From Gemmatimonas aurantiaca T-27 (GTDB lineage Bacteria; Gemmatimonadota; Gemmatimonadetes; Gemmatimonadales; Gemmatimonadaceae): a DNA stretch of 64,000 nt. This document shows positions 51,585-55,342 of the stretch, in pieces. Positions within the stretch are counted from its first letter, which is position 1. Every line of letters begins with the position of its first letter. The stretch is from NCBI RefSeq assembly GCF_000010305.1, contig NC_012489.1, forward strand, positions 4,471,646-4,535,645. The letters run 5' to 3'. The translations under genes and the position numbers were made by a program. A model generated the notes under the pieces. That model made no database searches. It was not told the DNA's origin and was given only the letters and a program-made list of their open reading frames with translations.

Positions 51585-53138
51585 ATGAAGCCCGTTCGCA
51601 TTTCCATTCTGCTGCGCCTCACGCTCTGGAATGCCAGCGTGCTCGCGCTGGTGCTCACTGTGTTTGTGGTGGGTGGGTGGTTCACGCTCACGCAGGTGGT
51701 GCAGGAACGCGCGATCACGGCGGTGAGCGAATCCGCGCAGGTCGTGGCCGGCGCCGTGCGCGCAGAACGTCGTGCCATTGCGGCACGCGGCGAAGTGGAA
51801 GAGGAGCGTGGTGCCACCGAGCAAGCGGTGTTGCGGGAACTGCGCGTGGGCAATCTCGACATCTTCATCACCGATGAAGCGGCGCAGATGATGGCAGCGC
51901 GGCAACCGCGTCTCCCCTCGGACGCCGCTTCCGACGGCGAAGAGGAGCATCGCGTGACATTGCCGCAGCCCGTGCTGATGCTGCTCGACGCCATGCGTGC
52001 GGGACACGACGAAGACATGGCCCGCACCCTCGGCACCGAATCAGGCGTCGCCGTGCGGCAGGTGATTCTGGCGGATGGCCCGGCGCGGGTGGCCATGATG
52101 CGCGTGGTGCCCGAGGAACACGACTCTCCGGAAGAGCCCACGCTGCTCGTGACTGCGCTGATGTCGGAGGCGGGTGACCGGTTGCTGCTGCGTCAGGTGC
52201 GCAACACCCTCATCCTCGCCATTCCGGCCGCACTCCTGGCGTCGATCCTGGCCGGCTTCGCAATCGCCCGACGCAGCCTCGCGCCACTCGAGGCCATCAA
52301 TGTGCGGACGGCCTCCATTACGACAGCCAATCTCGACGACCGATTGCCGGTGGTGAATCCACACGATGAACTCGGTCGTCTGGCGCAGATCATCAATGGT
52401 CTGCTGGGGCGAGTCGATCTCGCATTCCGTACCCAACGACAGTTCGTGGCCGATGCCTCGCACGAACTGCGCACCCCCATCGCCATCATTCGCGGTGAAG
52501 CCGACGTGACCTTGCGGCGCACCGCGCGCACGGAAGCGGAATACCGCGAAGCACTGTCCGTGATTCAGGGTGAGTCCATTCGGCTCACCCGCATCGTGGA
52601 AGACTTGTTCCTGCTGGCCCGTGTCGACGCCGGTGGCCCCATTGCCACCCGCGACGCCGTGGAACTGCCGGAGCTCGCCGTGGACGCCGTACGCAGCGTG
52701 CGTTCGCTGGCACTCTCCCAGGAAGTCACCGTCACCTGCGAAATCGAACATGCCGCCGGCAGTGCCATCACCAGTGGCGACGCCAGTCTACTCCGCCGCT
52801 TGCTCATCAACCTGCTGGACAACGCCATCAAACACACACCACGCGGCAGTACGGTGCGTGTCGTGGTGGACCGCGATGCCAACGACTTGATCCTGCGTGT
52901 GAGCGACGAAGGCCCCGGGGTACCGGAGACCATTCGCGCCCATGTCTTCGAGCGTTTTGTACATGGTCCGAAGGTGACGGAATCCTCCGCCAGCACCGGC
53001 GCGGGCCTGGGCCTCGCCATTGCCCAGGCCATCGCGCAGGTACACGGTGGTCAGATTACCCTGGCCGCGTCGCCCGCCGTCGGTGCCACGTTCGAGGTGC
53101 GTCTGCCCTCGCCCTCACCCACTGGTGACATCGCGTAA
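51585..53138 (+). CDS. Two-component sensor histidine kinase
   Basis: The 517-residue membrane kinase is the partner of the preceding regulator. Two transmembrane helices (about 13-36 and 204-226) flank a roughly 165-residue extracytoplasmic sensor rich in Glu/Asp and Met. HAMP (about 228-280), HisKA with the phospho-His in DASHELRTPIAII, and the ATPase domain with the N box (LLINLLDNAIKHTP), VSDEGPGVPE and GAGLGLAIAQAI follow. The stop overlaps the end of the convergent chorismate mutase gene by 24 nt. The stimulus is unknown. Confidence 0.96.
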   Translation: MKPVRISILLRLTLWNASVLALVLTVFVVGGWFTLTQVVQERAITAVSESAQVVAGAVRAERRAIAARGEVEEERGATEQAVLRELRVGNLDIFITDEAAQMMAARQPRLPSDAASDGEEEHRVTLPQPVLMLLDAMRAGHDEDMARTLGTESGVAVRQVILADGPARVAMMRVVPEEHDSPEEPTLLVTALMSEAGDRLLLRQVRNTLILAIPAALLASILAGFAIARRSLAPLEAINVRTASITTANLDDRLPVVNPHDELGRLAQIINGLLGRVDLAFRTQRQFVADASHELRTPIAIIRGEADVTLRRTARTEAEYREALSVIQGESIRLTRIVEDLFLLARVDAGGPIATRDAVELPELAVDAVRSVRSLALSQEVTVTCEIEHAAGSAITSGDASLLRRLLINLLDNAIKHTPRGSTVRVVVDRDANDLILRVSDEGPGVPETIRAHVFERFVHGPKVTESSASTGAGLGLAIAQAIAQVHGGQITLAASPAVGATFEVRLPSPSPTGDIA

Positions 53139-53435
53139 CTGCGCCCGCCGCGCGAGCGCCATGAGCTGCCAGTAGAGCGCGCGCATCTCCTGTTCCGGCA
53201 GCCCGGCGTCGCGCGCCCGGGCTGCCGCCCGTGTCACCACCGACGCCTCCCGCGCCGGATCGAGCACTGGCTGCCCAGTACGCTGCTTGATCTCGCCGAT
53301 GGCGCGCGCCAGCGACAACCGGCGCACCAGCGCCGTCAGGATTTCATCGTCCACGCCATCGATGTCCAAGCGGAGCTGCTGCAATTGCTGCAGCTCCTCA
53401 TGCGTCGGTTGATTTGCGCCGGGGGACGTATGCAT
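53115..53435 (-). CDS. Chorismate mutase (AroQ type)
   Basis: Converts chorismate to prephenate on the way to Phe and Tyr. From the ATG at 53435 it is 106 residues, typical of stand-alone AroQ. It has LRLDIDGVDDEILTALVRRL, the IGEIKQRTGQPVLDPARE stretch with the active-site Arg/Lys, and a C-terminal helix. The start overlaps the DAHP synthase stop by one base (TGATG), so it is translationally coupled and behind the same attenuator. Confidence 0.92.
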   Translation of the reverse strand: MHTSPGANQPTHEELQQLQQLRLDIDGVDDEILTALVRRLSLARAIGEIKQRTGQPVLDPAREASVVTRAAARARDAGLPEQEMRALYWQLMALARRAQLRDVTSG

Positions 53436-54481
53436 CACGCCACCACCGGCTCGGTCCACGGACACCCGCGGCCCACCGCCTGCGCAACCGCCTGCACCTG
53501 CTGCATCATGCTCGCAAACGCCGACGGTTCGAGTGACTGCTCACCGTCGCTCTTGGCCGTGGCCGGCGTGGGATGCACTTCCACAATGAGGCCATCGGCG
53601 CCTGCCGCAATCGCCGCCATGGCGAGCGGCGCCACCAGCGAGGCACGCCCACCAGCGTGACTCGGGTCGACAATCACCGGCAGGTGTGACTCGCGCTTGA
53701 GTACGGGGATGGCCGCGATGTCCATCGTGTTGCGGGTGGCGGTTTCGTACGTGCGGATGCCACGCTCACACAGGATCACATCCCCGTTCCCCTGCGCCAT
53801 GATGTACTCGGCGGCCATCAGCAGCTCGGTGATGGTGCCCGACAAGCCACGCTTGAGCAGCACCGGACGCTGCACTTTGCCGACCTCGGTGAGCAACGTG
53901 AAGTTCTGCATGTTGCGCGCACCGATCTGCAACACGTCCGCGTACGAGGCCACCAGCTCCACCTGACGGGGGTCCATCACTTCGGTGACGATGGGCATGC
54001 CTGTTTCCGCGCGCACATCGGCCATGATCTTGAGCCCCGCTTCCCCCATGCCCTGGAAAGCGTACGGCGACGAGCGTGGCTTGAATGCCCCGCCGCGCAG
54101 CAGCCGGGCACCGGCACGCTGCACATGATGCGCCGTCTCATGCATCATCGCTTCGCCTTCCACCGAACACGGACCGGCGATGACCACGATATCGCGACCG
54201 CCAATGACCGTGTCGGCCGGATCGCCAAAGCGGATAGCCGTATCACCCACCGAGAACTCGCGGGATGCGAGCTTGTAGGGCTTGAGGACGGGCAATACCC
54301 GTTCGACGCCTTCGAGCTGCGTCAGGCCGTGTTCACTGAGGCGGCCTTCATCGCCGATACAACCAACGATGGTGCGATGTTCGCCGCGTGAGACATGGGT
54401 GCGCAGCCCAGCGGTCTCGACATGTTCGATGATGCGGTCGAGGGCGTCGGCGGATATGGTAGCGGTGGTGACGATGATCAT
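53435..54481 (-). CDS. aroF: 3-deoxy-7-phosphoheptulonate synthase (DAHP synthase, type I-beta)
   Basis: First committed step of the shikimate pathway, joining phosphoenolpyruvate and erythrose-4-phosphate. The 348-residue product has an N-terminal ferredoxin-like (ACT-like) domain (1-75) of the Thermotoga type, often used for feedback inhibition. The TIM barrel carries VIAGPCSVEG, RGGAFKPRSSPYAFQG, LQIGARNMQNFTLL, LLKRGLSGTITE, CERGIRTY and IVDPSHAGGR. It follows a leader peptide and hairpin with an aromatic-residue run (54560-54700), implying regulation by charged tRNA-Phe/Tyr. Confidence 0.97.
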   Translation of the reverse strand: MIIVTTATISADALDRIIEHVETAGLRTHVSRGEHRTIVGCIGDEGRLSEHGLTQLEGVERVLPVLKPYKLASREFSVGDTAIRFGDPADTVIGGRDIVVIAGPCSVEGEAMMHETAHHVQRAGARLLRGGAFKPRSSPYAFQGMGEAGLKIMADVRAETGMPIVTEVMDPRQVELVASYADVLQIGARNMQNFTLLTEVGKVQRPVLLKRGLSGTITELLMAAEYIMAQGNGDVILCERGIRTYETATRNTMDIAAIPVLKRESHLPVIVDPSHAGGRASLVAPLAMAAIAAGADGLIVEVHPTPATAKSDGEQSLEPSAFASMMQQVQAVAQAVGRGCPWTEPVVA

Positions 54482-54530: not shown

Positions 54531-54550
54531 GTCGTGTTCGCCAGGCCCGG

Positions 54551-54584
54551 AAACAACAAAGGCCCGTGCGAATTGCACGAGCCT
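54551..54584 (-). terminator. Intrinsic terminator (attenuator) in the aroF leader
   Basis: On the minus strand AGGCTCGTGC pairs with GCACGGGCCT (10 bp, one G-U) around AATTC, directly followed by TTGTTGTTT. It begins 23 nt after the leader peptide stop and lies 79 nt ahead of the aroF ATG. Confidence 0.8.
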
Positions 54585-54607
54585 CTCAGCGGTGGGTGCG
54601 TCAGCGG

Positions 54608-54700
54608 TCAGCTACGCATGCCAAATTCGCCGGGGCCCATGCGGGTCGGCGGATAATAAAATCGGCAGGCGTAGGTGATGGCGGAGGCGTGACGCGTCAT
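54608..54700 (-). CDS. Aromatic amino acid leader peptide, 30 codons
   Basis: A short open frame from the ATG at 54700 encodes MTRHASAITYACRFYYPPTR plus ten more residues, ending at a TGA at 54608. The Phe-Tyr-Tyr run (residues 14-16, codons TTT TAT TAT) followed by Pro-Pro, plus Tyr10 and Phe26, is the composition expected of a Phe/Tyr-sensing attenuation peptide. There is no Shine-Dalgarno sequence; the predicted promoter places the transcript start on or next to the A of the ATG, so translation may be leaderless. A hairpin terminator and the DAHP synthase/chorismate mutase genes follow. Confidence 0.72.
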   Translation of the reverse strand: MTRHASAITYACRFYYPPTRMGPGEFGMRS

Positions 54701-54707
54701 ACCAAGG

Positions 54708-54736
54708 AGCCTATCCCGGCCACGGAACGAAGTCAA
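54708..54736 (-). promoter_or_regulatory. Sigma-70-type promoter for the aroF leader
   Basis: On the minus strand TTGACT (54736-54731) and TAGGCT (54713-54708) are 17 bp apart. The -35 box matches five of six consensus bases, the -10 box three. Seven bases separate the -10 box from the leader ATG. The region is also just upstream of the divergent pheA start. Confidence 0.6.
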
Positions 54737-54748
54737 TATCATGCGCAC

Positions 54749-55342
54749 ATGACGAATCCGGTCGTGACACAGTCCATGCATCCGGCGTGGCCCCGCGTGG
54801 CCTTTCAGGGCGAAGCAGGTGCGTTCAGCGAGATGGCCATTCGGCAGCATTGGCCGGATGGCGCCGACGCCATCGCCTGCCACACGTTCATCGAGGCGGT
54901 ACAACGTGTCTGCGAGCAAGCCGTCGACTTTGCGGTCATTCCGGTGGAAAACGCGATCGCGGGGCTGGTACGACCGGCTCATGATGCGATGCACGAGGCC
55001 GGCGACCGTCTGCAGTCGTGCGGCGAAGTGCGCGTGCCGATCCACCTGTGCCTGATGGCGCCACACGGTGCATCGCTGGCCGGATTGCGGGAGGTGCGCA
55101 GTCATGCCGTGGCCCTGGCCCAATGCCGGCTGTTCTTCGCGCGACACGAATGGCTGATCTCGATGCCACATGCCGACACGGCTGGTGCTGCCCGCGATGT
55201 GGCCGAGTGGGGTGATCGCACCCGAGGCGCCGTGGCCAGTGAATCGGCAGCGGCGCGGTACGGGCTCGAAATCATCGCCCATCACATCCAAGACATCCCG
55301 CACAACTGGACGCGCTTCGTGGTGCTGCAGCGTCGATCGTAG
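54749..55342 (+). CDS. pheA: Prephenate dehydratase without ACT domain
   Basis: Makes phenylpyruvate from prephenate, the last but one step to Phe. The 197-residue product is only the catalytic domain: VAFQGEAGAFSEMAIRQHW, FAVIPVENAIAGLV, GLREVRSHAVALAQC, GAVASESAAARYGLEII and the catalytic HNWTRFVVL. It stops at residue 197, where canonical enzymes continue into a roughly 80-residue Phe-binding ACT domain, so allosteric control by Phe is not expected. The ATG at 54749 is preferred over 54776. It is divergent from the aroF leader with only 48 bp between starts. Confidence 0.92.
   Translation: MTNPVVTQSMHPAWPRVAFQGEAGAFSEMAIRQHWPDGADAIACHTFIEAVQRVCEQAVDFAVIPVENAIAGLVRPAHDAMHEAGDRLQSCGEVRVPIHLCLMAPHGASLAGLREVRSHAVALAQCRLFFARHEWLISMPHADTAGAARDVAEWGDRTRGAVASESAAARYGLEIIAHHIQDIPHNWTRFVVLQRRS

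Follow-up and report, generated by a model that had tools for sequence, protein, structure and literature searches.

What does the short frame with a run of aromatic codons and a terminator-like hairpin behind it do ahead of aroF in Gemmatimonas aurantiaca T-27? The arrangement lies on the minus strand, between aroF-aroQ and a divergent prephenate dehydratase gene. It raises the possibility that DAHP synthase, which catalyzes the opening step of aromatic amino-acid synthesis, is controlled by a ribosome translating a leader peptide, and that this ribosome loads on the very first bases of the transcript. A sequence-only reading of the locus had proposed precisely such a leaderless attenuator, which we here assess in a window of 64,000 nucleotides (bases 4,471,646-4,535,645 of the single-contig genome of 4,636,964 bases; positions below are those of the window) and in the upstream DNA of aroF orthologs gathered over the phylum.

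Layout of the aroF leader

The elements named by the sequence-only reading are in place (Table 1): a promoter-like pair of TTGACT and TAGGCT set 17 bp apart, a frame of 30 codons that starts 7 nt (CCTTGGT) after the -10 box and contains Phe-Tyr-Tyr before its stop, and no Shine-Dalgarno (SD) sequence ahead of the leader. The control codons, TTT TAT TAT, are minor codons for the group of G. aurantiaca. The hairpin and U-rich tail behind the leader stop were also recovered, although the distance from the stop, given as 23 nt, is corrected to 21 nt when the outermost A-U pairs are counted. One stem-loop (54586-54558, tail GTTGTTT) was found against 0.0 expected in shuffled sequences, and its stability (z -3.26) was equalled in 0/200 shuffles. 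The genes downstream are those that had been named, as family matches identify aroF (PF18152 and PF00793), which starts at the ATG at 54481, and a chorismate mutase gene (PF01817) coupled to it through TGATG.

The divergent prephenate dehydratase is 197 aa long and ends with its catalytic domain, and the protein is equally short in other Gemmatimonas species. A family search of the window's copy gave no match to the C-terminal ACT regulatory domain, and feedback control by Phe may therefore have been lost at this enzyme.

Table 1. Elements of the aroF leader region and neighboring genes, in window positions
Feature	Position	Strand	Basis and remarks
-35-like hexamer TTGACT	54731..54736	-	sequence; TTG kept in nearly all of 61 relatives
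-10-like hexamer TAGGCT	54708..54713	-	sequence and relatives; spacer 17 bp from -35, leader ATG 7 nt on
Leader peptide frame, 30 codons, MTRHASAITYACRFYYPPTRMGPGEFGMRS*	54608..54700	-	predicted leaderless start (first transcribed base)
Control codons TTT TAT TAT (Phe-Tyr-Tyr)	54653..54661	-	sequence and relatives
Region 1a ACCTACGCCTGCCGA	54662..54676	-	folding and set-wide pairing test; partner is the 3' part of the leader frame
Region 1b CCGCCGACC	54644..54652	-	folding; local pairing with region 2 and flank if ribosome-free
Region 2 core GCATGGGCC, antiterminator arm	54634..54642	-	in leader frame, 10 nt past last aromatic codon
1:2 hairpin 3' arm TTGGCATGCGTAGC	54611..54624	-	folding; adjoins leader stop
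Region 3, terminator 5' arm AGAGGCTCGTGC	54575..54586	-	also alternative partner for region 2
Region 4, terminator 3' arm GCACGGGCCTTT	54558..54569	-	terminator scan and relatives
Terminator U-rich tail GTTGTTTCCG	54548..54557	-	terminator scan and relatives
aroF, type I-beta DAHP synthase, PF18152 (N-terminal ferredoxin-like regulatory domain) and PF00793	53435..54481	-	family matches
aroQ, chorismate mutase (PF01817)	53115..53435	-	start overlaps aroF stop as TGATG
Prephenate dehydratase, divergent to aroF	54749-55342		family match

Distribution of the leader in Gemmatimonadota

Among the orthologs gathered, the detector called a leader at 61 loci and none at 34; its -10 criterion had been relaxed, since requiring TANNNT at a fixed distance left out true leaders with CATCAT, CACACT or GAACAT boxes. 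The conservation of the short frame, aromatic run and hairpin on which the attenuator proposal hung was thus found in 61 orthologous leaders from five families, each with a terminator between the aromatic-run frame and aroF. In counts made by hand from the ortholog tables, the leader is present at 34 of the 36 loci that could be read in the window's family (a further locus is cut at a contig end) and at 5/5 loci in family f4, 3/3 in f6, 5/6 in f2, 14/40 in f5 and 0/4 in f10. The absences in f5 are concentrated in one genus, g66; there and in f10 the orthologous aroF stands without leader and without terminator, an apparent loss or absence of the attenuator. Leader and terminator go together across the set, with terminators at just 4/34 orthologs without a called leader, one of the four being cut at a contig end.

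Two comparisons led us to reject plain gene-family conservation as the explanation: a paralogous aroF, a second copy about 50% identical, had the leader in 0/12 cases examined in the phylum, and orthologs from outside it (Nitrospirota, Bacillota, Planctomycetota, Chloroflexota and others) had it in 0/57. The paralog in G. aurantiaca itself is a PF18152-type DAHP synthase, about 50% identical, at C1:1417094-1418113. Of the two DAHP synthase copies, one looks attenuated and the other not.

Although the nucleotide sequence changes between relatives, the leader frame and aromatic run persist, and nearly all of the 61 leaders hold 3-7 F/Y/W within eight residues. The peptides (for example MSRTIAYAYYYYFATPTPGRSWRRTR, MLSARAYYYFYFRSLSRAAGVGVRA, MTTAPRFYAFYYYFATRTTGRGCRRARG and MSTHRASFFFGYFWFSYRPEGRELEDARA) have little in common beyond this run, and selection therefore appears to act on codons and RNA. 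Tyr occurs in the run of 61/61 leaders, Phe in 46 and Trp in 31; the description of a Phe/Tyr attenuator holds for G. aurantiaca but is too narrow for the phylum, across which the attenuator is predicted to sense aromatic amino acids in general. Codon choice within the leaders is also distinctive. TTT makes up 62% of Phe codons in leaders versus 18% in aroF (p 3e-15) and TAT 41% of Tyr codons versus 12% (p 3e-9), whereas the codons of Cys, Ile and Asn showed no U-ending shift between leaders and aroF (p 0.5). Slow decoding and avoidance of structure are both possible reasons for the U-ending aromatic codons.

Alternative hairpins and the proposed mechanism

The alternative antiterminator pairing that an attenuator calls for exists and covaries over the 61 loci. 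Within the leader frame, region 2 (GCAUGGGCC, 54642-54634) has its complement in GGCUCGUGC, part of the terminator 5' arm. Over the set, the duplex of a leader with the terminator arm of its own locus averages -24.5 kcal/mol, compared with -20.3 (sd 0.42) for permuted partners (0/10,000 permutations reach the own value) and -18.4 kcal/mol (sd 0.37) under codon shuffling, where the permutation tests ignore relatedness and the base composition common to a genome and the codon shuffles address composition only. Region-3 arms vary (for example GGCCCGTG, GGCTCCCGG, CGGCCCTCGG, GGCCTCCGGGG, ACGCCCTGGGG and AGGCTCTCGGCT), with 45 distinct cores among the 61, most of which are matched in their own leader, and in partial transcripts stopping before region 4, the state expected when the decision falls, the leader frame takes up half or more of region 3 in 60/61. 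In the window, the antiterminator folds at -30.6 kcal/mol and the terminator at -21.2 kcal/mol, and the full leader fold (z -4.66, 0/200 shuffles) has the terminator formed. On these pairings, the antiterminator and the terminator would be mutually exclusive. Region 2 begins 10 nt (median and mode, 61 loci) past the last aromatic codon, which is where, from the textbook size of the ribosome footprint, the front edge falls when the last aromatic codon is in the A site. A ribosome stalled on the control codons would therefore leave region 2 free directly in front of it.

A protecting hairpin may form through two further pairings. The start of the frame pairs with its end, in the window as CUACGC.UGCC with GGCA.GCGUAG, and over the 61 loci this pairing reaches -27.4 kcal/mol for own versus -24.2 (sd 0.45) for permuted partners (0/10,000), in a test that ignores relatedness and the base composition common to a genome. 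In addition, a local hairpin right after the aromatic codons takes in region 2 and its flank; at -12.0 kcal/mol in the window it is equalled by 17/200 shuffles, and over the set the mean z is -1.1, with 18/61 leaders at the 0.05 level versus 3 expected from codon shuffles. The two pairings together would constitute the 1:2 hairpin, with moderate support for the local part. Since region 2 ends about 21 nt ahead of the leader stop, a ribosome waiting at the stop would leave it uncovered, and termination under plenty would therefore depend on region 1:2 pairing. The securing of termination in well-fed cells is the least certain step of the model.

With the frame, promoter spacing, absence of an SD site, terminator, antiterminator and codon-to-antiterminator spacing established by sequence and covariation, we regard the element as very probably a transcription attenuator of the trp/pheA type, operated by a ribosome that translates a leaderless leader peptide, an interpretation that the computable tests failed to refute. 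From this arrangement we infer the transcript start, the stalling, the response to tRNA charging and the occupancy of region 2 behind a ribosome at the stop. RNA polymerase would start at the leader ATG or within a base or two, and a ribosome would initiate on the 5'-terminal AUG without Shine-Dalgarno pairing. When Phe- or Tyr-tRNA is short, the ribosome would stall on TTT TAT TAT, covering region 1 and leaving region 2 free at its front edge, such that 2:3 pairing forms in place of the terminator and aroF-aroQ is transcribed. When the tRNA is charged, or the ribosome absent, region 2 would be held by region 1, through the local post-codon hairpin and the longer pairing of frame start with frame end, and region 3 would pair with region 4 to stop transcription. 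Points against the model are the weak -10 box in the window's species and the absence of the leader from one f5 genus and from 4/4 f10 genomes.

The window's TAGGCT is weak, matching at 3 of 6 positions, which is why a promoter scanner made no call in the window at TTGACT/TAGGCT, and support for the promoter therefore comes from conservation in relatives. The same attenuator might have its start several bases upstream and a short SD-free 5' UTR, as could be argued from the 14/61 leaders in which the gap between -10 box and ATG is 8 nt or more, from the 5/61 in which it is 3-5 nt, and from the uncertain, score-based assignment of -10 boxes that are themselves weak. Yet the gap is 6-7 nt in 42/61, with a TTGAC-like box at the expected distance, and 6-7 nt past the -10 box is the usual distance to +1. 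Similar spacing recurs in the hisG leaders described below. The absence of an SD sequence before the leader, confirmed in the window, extends to 58/61 leader starts; anti-SD pairing reaches -5 kcal/mol at the other 3/61, compared with 41/61 aroF starts. We consider a start displaced in this way unlikely, and a transcript start far upstream is also unlikely, given that 42/61 leaders keep 6-7 nt from promoter to ATG. That the transcript begins at the leader ATG is predicted from the distance between -10 box and ATG only.

Beyond the question of the exact start, the frame could in principle be incidental and the terminator governed by a T-box, a small-molecule aptamer or a protein, since amino-acid genes of other phyla are known to be under the control of T-boxes and proteins. 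This is very improbable: the frame and aromatic run are kept despite nucleotide change, the spacing from codons to region 2 is fixed, and His codons occupy the same place in the hisG leaders. A T-box or other Rfam element was rejected, as the whole window gave zero Rfam family matches, the T-box model included. It is hardly conceivable, finally, that a short frame has come by chance to lie beside a terminator serving another transcript. Short frames are common and the promoter scanner was silent, but conservation refutes a chance frame, with covarying stems in 61 leaders, no leader at the paralog or in orthologs from other phyla, and leader and terminator occurring together.

Related attenuators and other leaders in the genome

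The proposed leaderless attenuator resembles the enteric trp and pheA attenuators in its control codons, its predicted exclusive 1:2, 2:3 and 3:4 hairpins and its intrinsic terminator. Enteric leaders possess both an SD site and a 5' UTR, and their region 2 is covered by a ribosome that sits at the stop codon. In the aroF leader, by contrast, the frame itself contains region 2, which ends about 21 nt ahead of the stop. T-box riboswitches read tRNA charging to control a terminator, as the aroF leader would, but need no translation. Leaderless leader peptides of Actinobacteria are described for leuA and other genes (Seliverstov 2005 and Neshat 2014, as cited in PMC8079986) and for ilvBNC of C. 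glutamicum (Morbach 2000, as cited in PMC4046766); the S. lividans leuA case is without a typical terminator (PMC8079986). These share with the Gemmatimonadota leader the missing ribosome binding site and the association with amino-acid genes, and differ in the amino acids and the phylum.

The nearest counterpart is aroR of C. glutamicum, for which a Phe-Tyr-Phe leader peptide before the DAHP synthase gene aroF (Neshat et al. 2014, J Biotechnol 190:55) and an attenuator transcript detected by RNA-seq are recorded in the accounts of PMC4046766 and PMC11802643; transcription of its aroF rises under Phe, not Tyr, limitation (PMC11802643). Both systems place an aromatic leader peptide ahead of a DAHP synthase gene, but in different phyla, and the C. 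glutamicum system responds to Phe while the runs in Gemmatimonadota are mostly Tyr. The DAHP synthase downstream of the present leader is of type I-beta and has PF18152, a family that a search found in the G. aurantiaca genome and did not find in the C. glutamicum control genome. Because of this difference, the two devices most likely arose independently, by convergence. All C. glutamicum attenuators from the study that described aroR, aroR included, are reportedly leaderless. Leaderless attenuation of aroF is therefore not without precedent, and the present case lies in another phylum, with region 2 placed inside the frame. A literature search, with subscription journals mostly outside it, returned no report on amino-acid attenuation or leaderless transcripts in Gemmatimonadota, where the aroF attenuator is apparently a widespread instance independent of that in C. 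glutamicum.

A strict leaderless pattern has 17 matches in the G. aurantiaca genome versus 5 for the reversed control. One match, MPTLRQHHHHAHHGHGPTGRGYYVHAQVIGR, contains the run HHHHAHHGH and is followed by a terminator directly before hisG (C1, near 171,982-170,869). A His-run leader precedes hisG at 27/29 loci of the window's family, and in nearly all of these leaders a TTG box at the spacing of a leaderless start is combined with a U tract and a GC-rich hairpin. Because leaderless His-run leaders also precede hisG, leaderless attenuation looks like the house style of the lineage. Elsewhere in the genome (C1, near 3,722,103), a 37-aa frame that is Cys-rich near its end (CPCVAVRAACCRRGAVAGGVC) has a leaderless-type promoter, is followed by a terminator-like hairpin and sits upstream of a TonB-dependent receptor-like gene; it is a possible cysteine attenuator. 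No Trp leader was seen ahead of trpE in the same genome. Leaders of ilvB and leuA do not apply, as the models for acetolactate synthase (TIGR00118, ilvB) and isopropylmalate synthase (TIGR00973, leuA) find nothing in the genome although they match in 14/14 control genomes, and branched-chain amino-acid synthesis seems to be absent.

A broader proposal, to which we give somewhat less than an even chance, is that at least the aroF and hisG attenuators of Gemmatimonadota form a matched set whose mechanism makes use of the fusion between promoter and start codon. The ribosome would load on the first bases leaving the polymerase, setting the timing for which SD-led attenuators use a pause hairpin, and the response would be sharpened by slow aromatic codons ending in U, in a design that arose independently of the actinobacterial one.

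The Gemmatimonadota case indicates that leaderless attenuators are no actinobacterial peculiarity. The aroF and hisG leaders together provide about 90 natural sequences for studying the coupling of ribosome and polymerase without a Shine-Dalgarno site, and they predict that soil bacteria of a large, poorly cultured group regulate their synthesis of aromatic amino acids and histidine.
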